From assembly GCA_944324945.1 (NCBI GenBank), contig CALUYE010000001.1:372001-436000 (forward strand): a stretch of 64,000 nt of DNA, read 5' to 3'. Both the position numbers and the translations under genes were made by a program. The stretch is from Candidatus Gastranaerophilales bacterium. GTDB taxonomy: Bacteria; Cyanobacteriota; Vampirovibrionia; Gastranaerophilales; Gastranaerophilaceae. The notes under the pieces were generated by a model. The model searched no databases. It saw nothing but the letters and a program-made list of their open reading frames with translations, and had not been told where the DNA came from. Below are positions 35,424 through 58,139 of this stretch, in pieces (the first letter of the stretch is position 1; each line of letters opens with the position of its first letter).

Positions 35424-35592
35424 AACTACCTCTTTTTTAATTATACAATAAGGCATTTAAAAGACAACAGCCAATATTTTTATAAAAAACGGGTTTTATT
35501 GTAAAGTTTTGTAAAAAATACTTCAAATAACCTAAAGAATTCCTCTAAAAATCCGTAAAAAGTAATATAAAACAATGGAGGCGATGACAATT

Positions 35593-50970: not shown

Positions 50971-50998
50971 AAAAGAACTCGTTTTTTCGAGTTCTTTT
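50971..50998 (-). terminator. Terminator of the small-peptide operon
   Basis: AAAAGAACTCG and CGAGTTCTTTT form an 11-bp stem with a 6-nt loop; the minus strand continues with further T. It lies 49 nt past the stop of the 48-residue gene. Confidence 0.85.
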
Positions 50999-51223: not shown

Positions 51224-51391
51224 TTATGCAACTGCGCTGAATGAAGAAGATGAAGAAGATGATGAAGAACCTGCGTTGAATGAACCTGAATAAGCACAAG
51301 TTGAAGTATTTGAATTAGTGTTGTTAGAAGCGATTGTACCTGCTGTTTCTGTTTCTTTAACTGCTACTAGATTTGAAATTAAGTTAAACAT
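51224..51391 (-). CDS. 55-residue Ser-rich small protein
   Basis: An ATG at 51391 with AAAAGGAG upstream opens a 55-codon frame. The product has a hydrophobic start (MFNLISNLVAV), an Asn/Thr/Ser middle with one Cys (NTSTCAYSGSFNAG), a run of nine Ser and the end FSAVA. This two-part layout is reminiscent of a leader plus Ser-rich core, as in some post-translationally modified peptides, but no modifying enzyme is adjacent and it may simply be a flexible structural peptide. It is the promoter-proximal gene behind the 69-nt element at 51422-51490. No family recognised. Confidence 0.55.
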   Translation of the reverse strand: MFNLISNLVAVKETETAGTIASNNTNSNTSTCAYSGSFNAGSSSSSSSSSFSAVA

Positions 51392-51421: not shown

Positions 51422-51490
51422 CTTACATATATATAAAGTATATAAGGAGTATCGAATTTCAGTTTTAATATTTTTTGTTACAATTCTTAA
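51422..51490 (-). promoter_or_regulatory. 69-nt conserved promoter element, copy A
   Basis: This segment aligns without gaps to 58051-58119, with 58 of 69 positions identical and the first 24 (gene-proximal) identical. Read on the minus strand it runs from TTGTAACAAAA through TGAAATT to TATATACTTTATATATATG. TATACT at 51442-51437 is a plausible -10, giving a leader of about 39 nt. No standard -35 is in place, so an activator or alternative sigma factor is possible. Confidence 0.6.
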
Positions 51491-51500
51491 TAATATAGCC

Positions 51501-51526
51501 AAAAATAGCGCAATAGCGCTAAAAAA
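51501..51526. terminator. Terminator after murI
   Basis: TAGCGC (51506-51511) and GCGCTA (51516-51521) form a short stem flanked by A5 and A6, giving T5 after it on the minus strand. Confidence 0.7.
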
Positions 51527-51542
51527 GAATAAAATAAAAAAT

Positions 51543-52364
51543 TTATGCGCAATAAATTTTGCTAAAATCTATTGTTTTAACTTCATCTTTAATATCAAAG
51601 AATGTTTTAGCGCTCAATTTAAATTCCAAAGGATTGGCGGAAACGTAAAAATCTATTTTAGAATCCTTATAATCAGGCGTTTTAATCTCATTTTTTACAA
51701 TATGCGATATGCAAATTGCAGGGTTAAAATATTTAACATCATAGAATTTTTTGAATATATCAACAAGATAAGGATAGTGCGTACATCCTAAGATTATTTC
51801 TTTTGCGCCGGCTTTTTCTGCTATATCAAGCTTTGATTTTATCAATTCAAGAGATTCTTTTTTATTGTATAATCTGTTTTCAACAATTTCTACAAAACCG
51901 CTGCAATCTATTTCAACAACGTTAATTGAGGGGTTTAATTTTTGAATTTCATGGGTGTATTTTTTTGAATTTACGGTTGCTTTTGTTGCCAAAATTGCAA
52001 TTGTGTCGTTGTTTTTAAGGTTTTCAAGCGCATATTTTGCGGCATGCTGAATTAAAGGATAGATATTTAATCTGCCTTCAAAATTATTTTTCAACTTATC
52101 ATACGCAACGGCAGATGTTGTATTACAAGCTATTACAACATTTTTTACATTTTTTGTAATAAAAAAATCAAGTATTTCTTTTGTAAATTGATAAATTTCT
52201 TCAGGCGTTTTTGTTCCGTAGGGAAGATTTTTTGTATCTCCGAAGAATATGTAGTTTTTATAAGGCATTAGTTTATATAACTGTGCTAATACCGACAATC
52301 CTCCGACACCGCTGTCTAAAAGCCCTACAGGCTCAATTATTTCTTTTTTAAATGAATTTATCAT
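51543..52364 (-). CDS. murI: Glutamate racemase
   Basis: The 273-residue protein has 'VGLLDSGVGGLSVLAQLYKL' and the two catalytic cysteines: Cys80 in ACNTTSA and Cys194 in GCTHYP, with His196 following. It makes D-glutamate for peptidoglycan. It overlaps the upstream amidase gene by 4 nt, so both are coupled. The amidase-murI pairing is known from cyanobacteria. Length is typical. Confidence 0.96.
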   Translation of the reverse strand: MINSFKKEIIEPVGLLDSGVGGLSVLAQLYKLMPYKNYIFFGDTKNLPYGTKTPEEIYQFTKEILDFFITKNVKNVVIACNTTSAVAYDKLKNNFEGRLNIYPLIQHAAKYALENLKNNDTIAILATKATVNSKKYTHEIQKLNPSINVVEIDCSGFVEIVENRLYNKKESLELIKSKLDIAEKAGAKEIILGCTHYPYLVDIFKKFYDVKYFNPAICISHIVKNEIKTPDYKDSKIDFYVSANPLEFKLSAKTFFDIKDEVKTIDFSKIYCA

Positions 52365-54355
52365 TTTATTCCCAAATATTCCAAAATTCCTTTTACTATA
52401 GAATCGGCAATTTCTTCCTGCCTTGATTTTTTGACTAATTTTGCTCTTTCTTCTCTGTTTGAAATAAAGCCCATTTCAATTAAAATACTTGGTGCTTCAG
52501 TATGATTTATAACATAAAAACGAGATTTAATCACGCCTCTGTCTTTTGTATCCCATTTTTTAAGATTTTTTTCGCTGACAAAGTTTTTGTGCATTGTTTG
52601 GGCTAAATTTAAGCTGTCATCTTTGTAATAATGTATTTCAAGCCCGTAAGAATCTTCTTGAAGGGTTGAATTTGTATGAATACTTACAAAAATATCGGGT
52701 GCAATTTCGTTTGAATATGTGGTTCTGTCTTCAAGAGACAACGTCATATCTTTATTTCTTGTCATGTAGGTGTAGATATTTTTCTTTTTCAATTTTTCTT
52801 CAACCATTAATGCAACATTAAGGTTTAGCGTTTTTTCATATACTCCGCCTCCGATAGCTCCGCTGTCATCACCTCCATGGCCGGGGTCAATTACTACTTT
52901 TTTCATGGAGCTGATTTCTTGTTTTTTAGGAGGTTTTGGAGTTTCTTCTTTATCTTTTTTAGGTACAAACGTAACAATATTTTTATCCATCATTGAATCT
53001 TTTTCAACATTAGTCGGTTTTGATGTTGATATAACAAGTTCATCTTTGTTGTTATTTTGTGTTGTCGTTTGAACAGTCTTTTCTTTAAAACAAAGTTTGA
53101 TTGATTTAGCGTTGCTTTCAGTGTTTGCATAAGAAAAATTAAAGTTTTTTAAAGGAATAATGTAGCGGGTTTTATCGGTTGAAATTTTGCTTGCGCTTGT
53201 TCCTGTTCCAAGGCTTTTTAGTGCATTATCAAAAGCAATTTGATTAAAATCGGGAAGGTTATATATATCTAAATAAAAGTTATCGTTTAATTCAAAAGCA
53301 CTGTATACAACAGGGTTTGTAAATGCTAAATCAAAAATAAAATAACCGTTTGAGTTTTTCTGCGCTTTATATGAAGTTATTTTTGCATTTTCTGAAGTTA
53401 ATTTATTGTTTAAAACATAGGTTCTATGGGAAATATATAAGCTTTGACCATCAGAAGACATAACAAGGCGATAATCCCTTAAGCTTTCTCCTTTTAATTC
53501 TACTTTAATTCTTTTTGAATTGTATGTGCTTAAAGTTATTGAAGGGCATTTTATATTCTGGCTTGAGGGAACTTTATAGGTTTTATTTTCATATTTTGAA
53601 GACAGTGTCGCACTGTCTAAATAAAAAACAGCTTCAGTATTAGAAGCATTATAGCTCGGGCGAATCAGAGAAATTGAACCTATTCCTTTTAATAATATGC
53701 CGTCTGAATTCTGGCTTATTCTGCTTAAATAGTATTTATTTTGAAGGCTCGGAATTGTTGTTTTAGAGTCGTTTGTGTTGTTAAATGTCGTTGTAAGATA
53801 AGTATTTTGCGGCACAATTGTTTTATCGGCGTCTCCTGATGGAGTGAAGAATTTATATTGAATCGAATTGGTAATAATCGGATTATTGTATTTGATAATA
53901 ATATCGCTTCCGTTTGAATAAGCGCTGATTTTGGATAAATCAGCCTGATTATTAACAGTTACTACGGCTCTTACGATATTTGGCGAGACTGAAAACTGAG
54001 ATAAGACTATTTCTTTAATAGTATTTGAATTGGTTGTTTTATAGGTTCTTGACGCGCCGATTAAAGTCGCATTCGGTATATCAAGAACAAACCTGTAAGG
54101 GTTTGAGAGGGTAAATTTTGAAATATTGTTGATTATATTAATCGGAGTGTTTGCTACAGGCACGGTTGTGTTTGGAATGGGAGCGTATACGTTTGTTTTA
54201 TTTTCTTTAAAATTTCCATCCCCTTTAATTACAACCATTCTATCCGAGTTATCAATAATTAAATCTTGAATTTTATAATTTGAAGCACAAAAAGCACTCT
54301 GTAAAAAAAGCGTGCTCAAAAAGAATATTAAAATTATAAATCTTAATAAAAACAA
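52361..54355 (-). CDS. amiC: AMIN-domain N-acetylmuramoyl-L-alanine amidase
   Basis: The 664-residue protein starts at a TTG codon with GAGG 7 nt upstream; no ATG is available. Residues 1-23 are a signal peptide (ending FCA). AMIN-like beta modules follow ('PYRFVLDIPNATLIGASRTY', and a second 'FIFDLAFTNPVVYSAFELND'), then a Lys/Pro/Thr linker and the Amidase_3 domain: 'VVIDPGHGGDDSGAIGGGVY', 'IFVSIHTNS' and 'SILIEMGFISNREE', with the zinc-binding His, Glu and His and the catalytic Glu. It cleaves septal peptidoglycan during cell separation; in filamentous cyanobacteria AmiC also drills septal pores. Confidence 0.94.
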   Translation of the reverse strand: MFLLRFIILIFFLSTLFLQSAFCASNYKIQDLIIDNSDRMVVIKGDGNFKENKTNVYAPIPNTTVPVANTPINIINNISKFTLSNPYRFVLDIPNATLIGASRTYKTTNSNTIKEIVLSQFSVSPNIVRAVVTVNNQADLSKISAYSNGSDIIIKYNNPIITNSIQYKFFTPSGDADKTIVPQNTYLTTTFNNTNDSKTTIPSLQNKYYLSRISQNSDGILLKGIGSISLIRPSYNASNTEAVFYLDSATLSSKYENKTYKVPSSQNIKCPSITLSTYNSKRIKVELKGESLRDYRLVMSSDGQSLYISHRTYVLNNKLTSENAKITSYKAQKNSNGYFIFDLAFTNPVVYSAFELNDNFYLDIYNLPDFNQIAFDNALKSLGTGTSASKISTDKTRYIIPLKNFNFSYANTESNAKSIKLCFKEKTVQTTTQNNNKDELVISTSKPTNVEKDSMMDKNIVTFVPKKDKEETPKPPKKQEISSMKKVVIDPGHGGDDSGAIGGGVYEKTLNLNVALMVEEKLKKKNIYTYMTRNKDMTLSLEDRTTYSNEIAPDIFVSIHTNSTLQEDSYGLEIHYYKDDSLNLAQTMHKNFVSEKNLKKWDTKDRGVIKSRFYVINHTEAPSILIEMGFISNREERAKLVKKSRQEEIADSIVKGILEYLGIK

Positions 54356-54452
54356 TTGTTTTCCTCTTATTTTTATATTTTAGCATCAATCGAATTAATA
54401 ATAACTAAATCAGATTGTTGAATTTTTGAAGCAATTAATATAGTATTTATCT

Positions 54453-55322
54453 ATGGATTTAAAGAAGAACTTAGGAGCTTACTTATTTTTATTACCCGCA
54501 GGGATTATCCTTTTGCTGTTCTTTTTTATTCCTTTTTTCCAAACAATATATTTAAGCTTTTTTGATTTTTCAAAAAGCGCTTATAATCCTGATTTTGTGG
54601 AGTTTAGTAACTATATCGCTCTTATAAAATCTCCTTTGTTTTTAAAGACCGTATTAAATACTTTTTATTTTTTAATACTGTGCGTTCCTTTTTTGGTTGT
54701 TTTCCCATTGTTTCTTGCAATTTTAATCAATCAAAATATCCGCTTAAAAACGCTCTATAAAGCTTTAATATATATCCCTGTTATTGTCTCGACCGTTGTT
54801 ATTGCAATTGCTTTTAAATGGCTTTATGCGCCATCGGGGCTTTTGAATTATTTTGTTTCGCTGTTAGGTTTAGAGCCTATAGGATGGCTTAGCGATCCTA
54901 AAGTTGCAATGATTTCAGTTGCAATAGTTACGATATTTCGCGGTATCGGCTATTATATGATGATATATTTAAGCGCGCTTTTATCTATTCCTAATGAATT
55001 GTATGAAGCAGCAGAAGTAGATGGTGCCGTCGGTTTTAAGAAGCATTTAATAATAACAATCCCTCATTTAATGCCCGTTATAGCTTTAGTGAGTACGATA
55101 AGCTCAATTTCTGCTCTTAAGGCATTTACCGAAATATATGTAATGACAAAAGGCGGGCCTTTGGATTCAACTAAAACAATGGTATATTACATCTATCAAT
55201 ACGCGTTTGAAAATCTTGATTTAGGCCTGGCTTCGGCAGGAGCCGTTATATTGCTTATTATCATTATGGCATTTTCAATGTTAAATATATTTGTTTTTGA
55301 AAAGGATAAATATAAAATATGA
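54453..55322 (+). CDS. Sugar ABC transporter permease (MalF/UgpA type)
   Basis: The 289-residue membrane protein has six helices and the EAA loop 'IPNELYEAAEVDGAVGFKKH' that docks to the ATPase. It is the first of two permeases of a CUT1-type carbohydrate importer; glycerol-3-phosphate or oligosaccharides are typical cargoes, but the solute-binding protein that would tell is not here. There is no ribosome site; a TAGTAT box ends 6 nt before the ATG, again a possible leaderless start. It overlaps the next gene by 4 nt. Confidence 0.93.
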   Translation: MDLKKNLGAYLFLLPAGIILLLFFFIPFFQTIYLSFFDFSKSAYNPDFVEFSNYIALIKSPLFLKTVLNTFYFLILCVPFLVVFPLFLAILINQNIRLKTLYKALIYIPVIVSTVVIAIAFKWLYAPSGLLNYFVSLLGLEPIGWLSDPKVAMISVAIVTIFRGIGYYMMIYLSALLSIPNELYEAAEVDGAVGFKKHLIITIPHLMPVIALVSTISSISALKAFTEIYVMTKGGPLDSTKTMVYYIYQYAFENLDLGLASAGAVILLIIIMAFSMLNIFVFEKDKYKI

Positions 55323-56164
55323 TAAAAAAAAGATTTAAAAATATTTTAATTCATCTTGTTATAATATTTATCTGTGTTTTATCGGTTATTCCTTTTGTCT
55401 GGTTATTATCAACAGCGCTTAAAGGAAGAGCGGAAAATATTTTTGCATATCCTCCCGTTTTTATTCCTCAGGATTTTACTTTGGATAACTTTAGAGAAGT
55501 TTTAAAACTTGTACCTATCTTAAGATATATTTTAAACAGCTTAATTGTTGCTTTTATGGCGGTCGTTTTAAATGTCTTATTTGCTTCTCTTGCGGGGTAT
55601 CCTTTGGCAAGAATGAATTTTAAAGGCAAAAAAGTAGTCTTTTTTGCAATACTTGCAACGATTATGGTTCCTTTTCAAACAATTATGGTGCCGATTTATA
55701 TTATTGTTTTAAAATTAAATTTAATTGACACATTTTCGATTTTGCAAGGTTATTTAGGGCTTGTTTTGCCTTTTGCGGTTAATGCTTTCGGTATATTTTT
55801 AATGAGACAGGCATTTTTAACCATCCCGAAAGAAATTGAAGAAAGCGCAATAGTTGACGGTTGCAACTCTTTAGAGATATTTTTCAGAATTTTATTACCC
55901 ATGGTAAAACCGCAAATAGCGGTTTTGGCTATTTTTACATTTATTTCCTCATGGGGAGACTTTTTATGGCCGAGCATTGTTTTAACAAACGAAAATTTAT
56001 ACACTTTACCTGTGGGTATTAACAACATGGCAAGCAATTTCGGAGCCGATTACAGGCTTGTTGCGGCAGGGTCTGTAGTATCCATCATACCTATTTTGAT
56101 ATTTTTCCTTGCCCTTCAAAAATATTTCATAAAAGGTTCGCAAGACGGTGCAATTAAAGGTTAA
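55319..56164 (+). CDS. Sugar ABC transporter permease (MalG/UgpE type)
   Basis: The 281-residue protein is the partner permease, with 'GYPLARMNFKGKKVVFFAIL', 'IPKEIEESAIVDGCNSLEIF' (EAA loop) and the MalG-type 'SSWGDFLWPSIVLTNENLYT' near the end. Coupled to the upstream permease by an ATGA-type overlap. The ATPase (often shared, MsmX/UgpC-like) and binding protein must be encoded elsewhere. It converges on an Xre regulator gene with 1 nt between stops. Confidence 0.94.
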   Translation: MIKKRFKNILIHLVIIFICVLSVIPFVWLLSTALKGRAENIFAYPPVFIPQDFTLDNFREVLKLVPILRYILNSLIVAFMAVVLNVLFASLAGYPLARMNFKGKKVVFFAILATIMVPFQTIMVPIYIIVLKLNLIDTFSILQGYLGLVLPFAVNAFGIFLMRQAFLTIPKEIEESAIVDGCNSLEIFFRILLPMVKPQIAVLAIFTFISSWGDFLWPSIVLTNENLYTLPVGINNMASNFGADYRLVAAGSVVSIIPILIFFLALQKYFIKGSQDGAIKG

Positions 56165-56165
56165 A

Positions 56166-56489
56166 TCATTTTAAAAGAAATGTTCTTATGTATTTATAAG
56201 CTAAAATAAGCTCTTCATTGTTTAATTTATCAAGCAAAAGTTTAGTTTCGTTTTTTAAATTTTGGGGCGTTTGATGATAATAAAATTCAAATAAATCTTT
56301 AACTTCAACTCCTAAAGCGCAAGAAAGACGATAGATTAAGTCTGCCGAGGGGAAATTTTTGCCGCTTTCAATACAGCTTATGTGTTTATCGTCGACATTT
56401 ACAATTTCTGCAAGCTGAGCTTGCGTATAATTGCGTTTTTTTCTCAGTTCTTTAATTTTTTTGCCGAATAATATTTTAATATTTTCCAT
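56166..56489 (-). CDS. Xre family transcriptional regulator
   Basis: The 107-residue protein has an N-terminal HTH_3 domain ('FGKKIKELRKKRNYTQAQLA', 'EIVNVDDKHISCIESGKNFP', 'ADLIYRLSCALGVEVKDLFE') and a helical tail of about 40 residues ending 'ELILAYKYIRTFLLK', probably for dimerisation. It diverges from the prepilin-like gene, and the shared region carries several GGTAA half-sites over a consensus promoter, so it likely represses that gene. Confidence 0.88.
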   Translation of the reverse strand: MENIKILFGKKIKELRKKRNYTQAQLAEIVNVDDKHISCIESGKNFPSADLIYRLSCALGVEVKDLFEFYYHQTPQNLKNETKLLLDKLNNEELILAYKYIRTFLLK

Positions 56490-56544
56490 TTTTTCCTCTT
56501 TTAAATAATTTTATAGATATTAAAGCCGATTAAAAATGGATAAT

Positions 56545-56628
56545 TAGGTAATTTATTGACAAAAATTTACTTAATTTATATAATTCATGGTGAAATAGGT
56601 AAATTTTTATTAATTTAATACCTGATTA
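56545..56628 (+). promoter_or_regulatory. Consensus sigma70 promoter with repeated GGTAA half-sites
   Basis: TTGACA (56556-56561), 17-nt spacer, TATAAT (56579-56584): both boxes are perfect. AGGTAATTT (56546-56554), AAATTTACTT (inverted, 56563-56572), AGGTAAATTT (56597-56606) and AATACCTGA (inverted, around 56617-56626) overlap or flank it. Transcription would start near 56591, 59 nt before the prepilin ATG. Confidence 0.65.
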
Positions 56629-56649
56629 GTATATTTTGGAGTTTGTTTT

Positions 56650-57405
56650 ATGAAAAGATTTGGTTTTACTTTGGCTGAAATTTTAATTGTATTGGTAATA
56701 ATCGGCGTTTTAACCATGATACTTTTGCCTATGGCTTTTCAATCTTCACCTGATGAAGCGGTGTTAAAATTTAAAAAAGGACATAATACCCTATCAACCG
56801 TAATTAAAGAACTGGTGTCATCAGACAAATATTATCAAAACGGTGATCTTGGAACAAGAGCAAACGGACAATTGCTGGATAGAACCCACAAGGGCGATAT
56901 TGAATATTTTTGCAAAAGTATGTCTGAGATAATGACTACAAAAAGTGTCAACTGCTCCAAGGATAATTCAAAAGGTTCTGCGGGTTTTTATTGGATGGAT
57001 GTGGATGTTGATAATTCAAATACGGAATCTTGTAAAACAAAAGCTGATGAATTGTGCAAAAAAAGACAAGAAGCCACAGGTGCCGAAATTGTTACATCCG
57101 ATAATATTATATTTTTTAATGCAACTCCGGCGATAACTTTTGCCATGCCGACAACGCAAGCAAGAAAAGAGCGCTCCGAAAGGGACGATTATTCTGATGA
57201 AGTTCAGGATGATACCAGATTATTCGGCGGACACCATGTGGATGAGAATGGTTTTGACAGGATATATAAAATCGTATGCATGGATATAGACGGCATAAAT
57301 AAGGGTGAAGACCCTTTTGCGTACGGCATTAGAGCGGACGGTAAAATTTTAACGGGAAAAAGGGCGGATGAATGGATGGAAAAATCAATTCAAAAAAATG
57401 ATTAA
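56650..57405 (+). CDS. Type IV prepilin-like protein
   Basis: The 251-residue protein has a short basic leader MKRFG followed by FTLAEILIVLVIIGVL, the prepilin peptidase site (cleavage after Gly5, with Phe at +1 and Glu at +5) and hydrophobic stalk. The exported domain has several Cys (FCKSMSE, VNCSKDN, ESCKTKADELCKK, IVCMDID) and ends 'EDPFAYGIRADGKILTGKRA', a pattern seen in pseudopilins with a Ca-binding or compact C-terminal fold. It may be a minor pilin or a surface protein using the pilin anchor. Controlled by the strong promoter upstream and probably by the divergent Xre protein. Confidence 0.8.
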   Translation: MKRFGFTLAEILIVLVIIGVLTMILLPMAFQSSPDEAVLKFKKGHNTLSTVIKELVSSDKYYQNGDLGTRANGQLLDRTHKGDIEYFCKSMSEIMTTKSVNCSKDNSKGSAGFYWMDVDVDNSNTESCKTKADELCKKRQEATGAEIVTSDNIIFFNATPAITFAMPTTQARKERSERDDYSDEVQDDTRLFGGHHVDENGFDRIYKIVCMDIDGINKGEDPFAYGIRADGKILTGKRADEWMEKSIQKND

Positions 57406-57460
57406 ATTTTTAAATTGTTGTTTTATGCTAAAATTTTAATATAGCAAATGAGGATTTAAA

Positions 57461-57733
57461 ATGTTAAAAACAATAGATTATAAAACACAAGGCACCTGTT
57501 CCAAAAGAATTATGATTGTTTTAGATGATGATATTATTAAAGATATCGAGTTTGAAGGCGGATGCAGCGGTAATCTGCAAGGTATAAGCAAGCTTGTTAA
57601 GGGAATGAATGTAAATGAAGTTATTTCTAAATTAAAAGGAATAAGATGCGGCTATAAGCCTACAAGCTGTCCTGATCAATTGGCAAATTGTCTTATTGAA
57701 TACGTTCAAAACAAGCAGAAAACAACCGTTTAA
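57461..57733 (+). CDS. TSCPD domain protein
   Basis: The 90-residue protein has 'FEGGCSGNLQGISKLVKGM' and the name motif TSCPDQLA (near residues 70-77), with Cys residues at CSK, GGC, RCG and SCP. This short form is common in anaerobes; the same domain occurs at the end of some ribonucleotide reductases. Its role is unknown; metal binding is plausible. GAGG site upstream. It follows the prepilin gene by 55 nt and ends at a clear terminator. Confidence 0.88.
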   Translation: MLKTIDYKTQGTCSKRIMIVLDDDIIKDIEFEGGCSGNLQGISKLVKGMNVNEVISKLKGIRCGYKPTSCPDQLANCLIEYVQNKQKTTV

Positions 57734-57739
57734 TACCTC

Positions 57740-57766
57740 AAAAGCCTGTATGATACAGGCTTTTTT
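57740..57766 (+). terminator. Terminator after the TSCPD gene
   Basis: AAAGCCTGTA and TACAGGCTTT form a stem around a short loop, followed by T6. The remaining gap to 57855 has only an AT-rich palindrome at 57821-57840, perhaps the end of the opposing small gene. Confidence 0.88.
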
Positions 57767-57854
57767 AAACTTCTCCAATTCCGCTATTTAATTTTAACTT
57801 CTTCTCTCTCTATAATATCAATAAATCAATTTTGATTTATCACATAACTCTTTT

Positions 57855-58028
57855 TTATCTGTTAATTCTAAAATTAATCATCGCTTTATGATTAACAGCA
57901 ATTAACTCCATCGAATTCCAAAACTCATTAACATTCATCGTTGATTTAGAATCTAGGTTTACAGTAACCTTAGAAGAATAAAGCTCATTAAGTTTTTTAT
58001 CAAAATCATTTGTAATTTGTAAATTCAT
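57855..58028 (-). CDS. 57-residue small protein behind the shared 69-nt element
   Basis: I choose the ATG at 58028, 9 nt after an AAAGG site; an ATG at 58037 directly abuts that site. The product starts MNLQITNDFDKKLNEL, is mixed alpha/beta in composition, and ends NHKAMINFRINR. It has no signal peptide, membrane segment or Cys. It is not similar to the two other tiny proteins at 51047-51391, although it shares their promoter element (58051-58119). No family recognised. Confidence 0.55.
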   Translation of the reverse strand: MNLQITNDFDKKLNELYSSKVTVNLDSKSTMNVNEFWNSMELIAVNHKAMINFRINR

Positions 58029-58050
58029 CTTTATCATCCTTTAGTAACTG

Positions 58051-58119
58051 CTTACATATATATAAAGTATATAAAGATTATACAATTTCACTTTTATCTT
58101 ATTTTGTTACAAAACTTAA
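58051..58119 (-). promoter_or_regulatory. 69-nt conserved promoter element, copy B
   Basis: Ungapped match to 51422-51490 (58 of 69 identical). TATACT at 58071-58066 is the equivalent -10 candidate, giving a leader of about 31 nt. TTGTAACAAAA at its far end (near 58102-58112) is conserved, as is the sequence past the predicted start. Confidence 0.6.
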
Positions 58120-58139
58120 CAAATGTGTTTTTATTGCAA

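Follow-up and report, generated by a model that had tools for sequence, protein, structure and literature searches.

A predicted promoter element with an RpaB-type direct repeat precedes small-protein genes and candidate small RNAs in Gastranaerophilales

We analysed a 64-kb window of DNA from a Candidatus Gastranaerophilales bacterium (C1:372001-436000 of genome G000, 1.92 Mb in 15 contigs). On its minus strand the window carries two copies of a 69-nt element, each followed by small-protein genes (Table 1). A first-pass annotation had aligned 51422-51490 with 58051-58119 without gaps, placed the two blocks 30 and 22 nt before start codons, and seen no third copy in the window. These observations were borne out: the alignment is ungapped, the start codons at 51391 and 58028 lie at those distances, and the 64 kb hold no third full copy. 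When copy 1 was used as a BLAST query against the whole genome, copy 2 was matched with E = 1.6e-15 and 84% identity, a similarity far beyond chance.

Copy 1 is followed by two genes, and the sequence suggests that gene 1b is probably a second cistron after gene 1a. Copy 2 is followed by gene 2, whose family occurs behind the element in many relatives. A longer called open reading frame (ORF) for gene 2, starting at 58037, was rejected because its ATG overlaps the gene's own ribosome-binding site; since the relatives also begin at the equivalent codon, the start was placed at 58028, giving 57 amino acids. No Pfam or PHROGs family was matched by genes 1a and 1b, and searches of Pfam, NCBIfam and PHROGs gave no name for the 55- and 57-amino-acid proteins. 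A Pfam match to a eukaryotic clathrin-adaptor family in the small-protein searches (E 0.17) was taken as chance. The AlphaFold model of the 57-amino-acid family has two helices at low confidence (mean pLDDT 62.5) and found no match in the PDB at E <= 10.

Table 1. Parts of the two element copies and the genes behind them, in window coordinates
Feature	Position	Strand	Remarks
HLR1-type direct repeat, copy 1	51477..51494	+ (promoter on -)	GTTACAATTCTTAATAAT; 14/16 specified consensus positions, counted by hand
GAAATT box, copy 1	51455..51460	-	G[A/C]AATT at -18..-13, nearly invariant in 112 loci
Core 21-mer TATACTTTATATATATGTAAG, copy 1	51422..51442	-	Exact match
Gene 1a, 55-amino-acid Ser-rich protein	51224..51391	-	ORF with AAAGGAG Shine-Dalgarno sequence, 30 nt after the element
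Gene 1b, 48-amino-acid peptide with one hydrophobic segment	51047..51193	-	Own Shine-Dalgarno-like site, 30 nt after gene 1a
Terminator-like hairpin closing the two-gene unit 1a-1b	50971..50998	-	-12.9 kcal/mol, then a T run
HLR1-type direct repeat, copy 2	58106..58123 (C1:430106-430123)	+	GTTACAAAACTTAACAAA; one consensus mismatch (15/16)
GAAATT box, copy 2	58084..58089	-	Conserved -18..-13 box
Core 21-mer, copy 2	58051..58071	-	Exact match
Gene 2, 57-amino-acid protein	57855..58028	-	In a cluster of 28 promoter-proximal ORFs (27 aligned)

The first-pass annotation had proposed a whole-genome search, with a lack of further copies, together with no transcription from either site, counting against its idea of a shared regulatory element. 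The first half of that condition fails. The 23-mer TATATACTTTATATATATGTAAG, at <=3 mismatches, occurs ten times in the genome, compared with zero for the reversed control, and eight of these copies lie outside the window. A sequence-only profile built from the ten copies (R1) gave 16 matches at E <= 0.003 in the 1.92-Mb genome. An exact scan of contigs found the core 21-mer TATACTTTATATATATGTAAG in at least 112 stretches of GTDB genomes. Among the 80 titled matches listed, 42 are named Candidatus Gastranaerophilales, 3 'Cyanobacteria bacterium' and 1 'uncultured Acinetobacter', and 34 carry no taxon. The Acinetobacter title belongs to a contig of a rumen metagenome-assembled genome (ONVC01000050.1, locus L082) and is probably wrong. 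Profile R1 was also run at E <= 1e-4 on 40 chosen genomes: 20 of the same family, 3 of the same class and 17 from further classes, among them small genomes of family f28. All 20 same-family genomes have the element, with 8-15 matches each, and none of the 20 genomes outside the family has it. In these genomes the composite element is thus confined to the family; the regulator RpaB, discussed below, is phylum-wide.

The element consists of three parts at fixed spacing, namely a 10-bp direct repeat, G[A/C]AATT and TATACTTTATATATA. If the T of TATACT serves as the reference for positions, the 112 loci keep the period-10 direct repeat near -50 and -40, and columns -18..-13 read G in 96%, followed by A/C, A, A, T and T at 92-100%. 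These loci were picked by the exact 21-mer, which is thus invariant among them by construction. A further check of the core used 30 profile-found copies, 29 of which were usable; L266, a cut locus with 13/21 core positions, was left out. TATACTTTAT is kept in 29/29 and TATACTTTATATATA in most of these copies, the core begins with AATACT in 2/29, and the GTAAG tail is variable (TAAGAG, CACAAG, CATAAG and others). Accordingly, G[A/C]AATT-N12-TATACTTTATATATA is the most fitting way to write the core.

The tail also bears on the suggestion in the first-pass annotation of an RNA leader, with part of the block acting in the RNA. Two features behind the core, the GTAAG tail and a weak AgaTAA stretch, would fit such a leader, or a riboswitch. 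However, the tail past TATACTTTATATATA varies in copies found without requiring it, the sequences downstream are unrelated ORFs and RNAs, and the upstream box is a direct repeat of the DNA-binding type. In addition, a comparison of six loci of the genome under study with Rfam brought nothing at the gathering cut-off; the single sub-threshold match was taken as chance. A leader is therefore very unlikely.

The upstream repeat resembles a published regulatory site. According to three sources (PMC11633204, PMC9241938, PMC13421787), the RpaB site of cyanobacteria, HLR1, reads (G/T)TTACA(T/A)(T/A)NN(G/T)TTACA(T/A)(T/A). This consensus comes from photosynthetic cyanobacteria and is independent of the present data. 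It was scored within -60..-19 in the 108 loci with full upstream sequence, after 4 of the 112 loci were dropped as cut. The best score per locus was 16/16 in 27 loci, 15 in 27, 14 in 36, 13 in 16 and 12 in 2. Scores of at least 14/16 were thus reached in 90/108 loci, compared with 3.5/108 in dinucleotide shuffles, and the mean score was 14.56 against 11.65 (standard deviation of the shuffle means 0.09). Since related copies are not independent, the size of this excess outweighs any p-value. In the GAAATT class (n=51), the box lies on the opposite strand, at -52 in 44 loci and at -53 in 6; the repeat of copy 1 is at -52, the modal place across loci. The GCAATT class (n=43) has boxes in either orientation, chiefly at -50 (+, 11 loci), -55 (-, 10) and -52/-53 (-, 12).

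These features suggest that the block is probably a clade-specific Gastranaerophilales promoter, at which RpaB would bind an HLR1-type box and activate small proteins and small RNAs. The upstream part would be an HLR1-kind site for the OmpR-family response regulator RpaB, and the downstream part (G[A/C]AATT, 12 bases, TATACTTTATATATA) the core promoter. The regulator, probably when phosphorylated, would bind the direct repeat and help RNA polymerase onto the core, so that the small proteins and small RNAs would be expressed together. Computation shows the element family with its constant layout, the HLR1 fit, an RpaB with an unchanged recognition helix, and more genes and RNA units downstream than on the other side; we infer RpaB as the binder, activation over repression, and the signal alike.

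The genome encodes four OmpR-type (Trans_reg_C) regulators. One of them (L171, C11:10203-10946) reaches 360.6 bits against the NCBIfam RpaB equivalog NF045944, above the cut-off of 330, and the other three fall below it with 188.1, 205.8 and 165.8 bits. RpaB was matched at E <= 1e-60 in 140/146 genomes of the phylum, with identities of about 86-89% in the own family, 66-74% in most others and 58-65% in one group. Its recognition helix, DTRVVDVHISRLR, is shared without change by the own RpaB, four same-family, three same-class and six photosynthetic-type sequences, the 'photosynthetic' label of these six resting on kinship and size. Beside rpaB lies a gene (L171:2390-2956, beginning MGWVVLALRKAQLK) whose first residues and layout are similar to those of the element-driven MGWISLSLRKQ protein in L004.

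One of the other regulators, an RpaA homolog or one of the three further ones, might bind the repeat instead. The presence of four Trans_reg_C regulators leaves room for this, and so does the sharing of RpaB sites by RpaA in cyanobacteria, where RpaA competes with RpaB at some sites according to PMC13421787. However, besides failing the equivalog cut-off, all three have recognition helices that differ from DTRVVDVHISRLR, and the box fits the published RpaB site in the 90 copies noted above. We consider another binder quite unlikely.

Several observations, like the RpaA competition just mentioned, weigh against RpaB acting through this box. A direct repeat of period 10 is general to the OmpR family, whose regulators have similar direct repeats. 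The GAAATT and GCAATT classes differ in the orientation of the box and, by 2-5 bases, in its place, and 18/108 copies score below 14 on HLR1. The genome is AT-rich and has 56 sites with <=1 HLR1 mismatch, compared with 40 for the reversed control; HLR1 alone was rejected as a genome-wide predictor for being too weak. Of its 14 perfect HLR1 sites, 4 are found with a core at the -52 spacing and 10 have no core nearby. Finally, two same-family genomes, G069 and G082, have 9 elements each and no RpaB at E <= 1e-60. In G082, 189 bases separate the end of kdsB, which usually neighbours rpaB, from the contig end, and RpaB would be expected on that side; in G069, kdsB is missing too; and in a further genome, G063, RpaB runs into a stretch of N. 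Assembly gaps are likely the best account of the missing RpaB in G069 and G082.

The window also has one perfect HLR1-type box that is not joined to a TATACTTTATATATA core. It occupies 35498-35515, and a gene beginning MGMAASQARFLGLTARKSN starts about 80-100 nt after it. A related GMAASQAR protein is encoded behind a small-RNA copy of the element at L041.

The position of the box bears on whether RpaB would activate or repress. PMC13421787 describes activation by RpaB where HLR1 lies about -66 to -45 and repression where it lies -38 to +23. With TATACT taken as the -10 hexamer, the box here would span about -64 to -47; a -10 further down, in TATATA, would put the box further away, still upstream. 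Activation is the better guess because the box falls in the -66 to -45 range or stays upstream. Repression at the element would fit the published repressing positions if the start lay at another distance from the box. However, the best box is upstream of the core in nearly all 108 loci (far end -60 to -49, except in two), and because of this a start overlapping the box would need transcription from upstream of the kept core. Repression thus appears unlikely.

The core itself suggests another possibility, that an alternative sigma factor reads the strict core and the upstream box only tunes it. G[A/C]AATT-N12-TATACTTTATATATA has the form of conserved -35/-10 boxes at fixed spacing that is looked for in alternative-sigma promoters, and the two boxes are far more conserved than a housekeeping promoter. 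G[A/C]AATT is also off the standard -35 distance, standing 12 bp from TATACT and 19 from TATATA (at 7-12), which keeps an alternative sigma factor in play. In all, 8 sigma-70 region 2 genes are present in the genome, one of them about 1.3 kb from tandem elements (C2:311840 vs C2:313368). However, none of the 8 is tied to the element by co-occurrence or control, and the core holds TATACT and TATATA, which are compatible with a housekeeping -10. To our knowledge, the core is also unlike the consensus sequences of sigma-54, FliA and SigB, which counts against such a factor. We regard the sigma-factor account as possible, with the odds against it.

The first-pass annotation had described a regulon of small proteins under one activator and had proposed listing the downstream genes. 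The listing found ORFs or terminator-bounded RNAs behind most copies. The many copies, their fixed spacing, their place before genes and the OmpR-family box upstream agree with that description; its restriction to small proteins does not hold. By script, 57 of the 108 loci precede an ORF and about a third (34/108) a terminator-bounded RNA gene without an ORF, the other 17 being undecided, mostly because contig ends cut them. In a stricter classing of 87 loci, with 240 nt taken on both sides, the downstream side holds 45 ORFs, 30 terminators only and 12 with neither, compared with 16, 6 and 65 on the divergent side. The ORF start codons lie a median of 25 nt behind the 21-mer. That a same-direction gene or terminator follows in 75/87 loci also argues against a mobile or recombination site. 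Such a site would be multicopy, as the element is, and the core of L007 lies in a long inverted repeat; however, beyond the element the copies have no common flanks, except in paralogs. We consider a mobile site extremely improbable.

In the genome under study, the copies beyond the window genes precede a second copy of the 57-amino-acid gene, a ribbon-helix-helix gene (PF01402, 33.7 bits, cut-off 20.5) and at least three ORF-less RNA units; a tandem pair of elements precedes genes for coiled-coil-like proteins of 157 amino acids. The latter locus (L004:741-2088) is a tandem duplication of element and gene with identical proteins, about 1.3 kb from a SigB/F-type sigma gene. We clustered 84 promoter-proximal ORFs across loci. 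The largest cluster has 28 members of 54-60 amino acids (one of 116) and contains gene 2. The second has 18 members of 77-111 amino acids with RMRFNN..DPIYYVFD, followed by a loose group of 7, 6 ribbon-helix-helix proteins and small groups. In the family of 77-111 amino acids (L032, L035, L036, L038 and 14 others), D..MRFN...DPIY..F is invariant; the one member searched has no Pfam name, and the model is of low confidence. An 81-amino-acid family was likewise modelled by AlphaFold at low confidence (mean pLDDT 57.7). Of the small families searched in Pfam and PHROGs, only the ribbon-helix-helix one received a name.

Among the ORF-less units, one small-RNA family (type c) has three copies in the genome under study (L007, L008 and L013). 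Its layout is an invariant single-stranded ACACTAACCT, ACACGA, a hairpin and a terminator, and a two-hairpin fold was found in 12/12 type-c sequences. Some sequences form the first stem from GAAUC/GAUUC, others from GGAAU/AUUCC, changes that we read by eye from the folds as compensatory; this pairing comes from single folds and is not a formal covariation count, as MAFFT misaligned the first hairpin. Against shuffles, the three own copies have fold z-scores of -3.8, -4.4 and -3.8, and a fourth candidate RNA, L009, reaches only -1.2. Type c thus has an own predicted promoter, a terminator, no ORF and a conserved structure, as is looked for in trans-acting small RNAs, and we take the two-hairpin family to be previously undescribed. 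No target was found with the seed complement AAGGTTAGTG, which occurs three times in the genome: in two small-RNA genes and once antisense in a coding region. In L007:1461-1591 (minus strand), the core of the small-RNA copy lies inside the long inverted repeat CTTACATATATA-CTTTA-TATATATGTAAG.

Other small-RNA types have CUUCC-rich single strands. A type with a single-stranded CTTCCTAACCTTCCCTTCCTA occurs in L065, L071, L089, L113, L116, L120-L122 and others, and this stretch possibly pairs with ribosome-binding sites.

RpaB adjusts photosynthesis to light in cyanobacteria. The element and its proposed regulator share with the RpaB-HLR1 regulons of Synechocystis 6803 and Synechococcus 7942 the 18-bp direct-repeat consensus and the same regulator with an identical recognition helix, and with RpaB-activated cyanobacterial promoters a box upstream of the core. 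Unlike in the photosynthetic regulons, there are no photosynthesis genes among the predicted Gastranaerophilales targets, which are unnamed small proteins and small RNAs, and the box is joined to G[A/C]AATT-N12-TATACTTTATATATA, a core that was absent in the 17 genomes searched outside the class. The cyanobacterial RpaB regulon does include small proteins and the small RNA PsrR1, according to PMC13421787. Like Synechocystis PsrR1, which has single-stranded, pyrimidine-rich target regions, the candidates here are short terminator-bounded RNAs with an RpaB-type promoter; unlike PsrR1, they match no Rfam family in sequence and fold in the loci tested.

Homologs of RpaA, RpaB and NblS have been reported in Melainabacteria, where they 'may have another function' (Di Rienzi 2013, PMC3787301), and in all three Melainabacteria orders (Soo 2014, PMC4040986). 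The regulator and the clade are the same as here; unlike the present analysis, the accessible parts of these two reports give no site or target. The literature on Melainabacteria that we covered, which largely leaves aside subscription papers, yielded no RpaB binding site, targets, regulon or small RNA. The site and the regulator are of already known kinds, and what is new is that a non-photosynthetic lineage joins them to a core of its own clade and to small proteins and small RNAs.

More tentatively, and with doubts that exceed our confidence, Gastranaerophilales may run a small-protein and small-RNA programme from a clade-specific promoter class served by RpaB and a non-housekeeping sigma factor. 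If so, the RpaB-HLR1 switch would either predate photosynthetic control or have been rewired wholesale to a programme of gut life. The findings thus bear on whether the regulator-site pair preceded photosynthesis. The role of RpaB in non-photosynthetic Melainabacteria, left open since 2013, gains candidate sites and a candidate regulon, and for a common gut clade the analysis predicts several small-protein families without names as well as a small-RNA class not described before.

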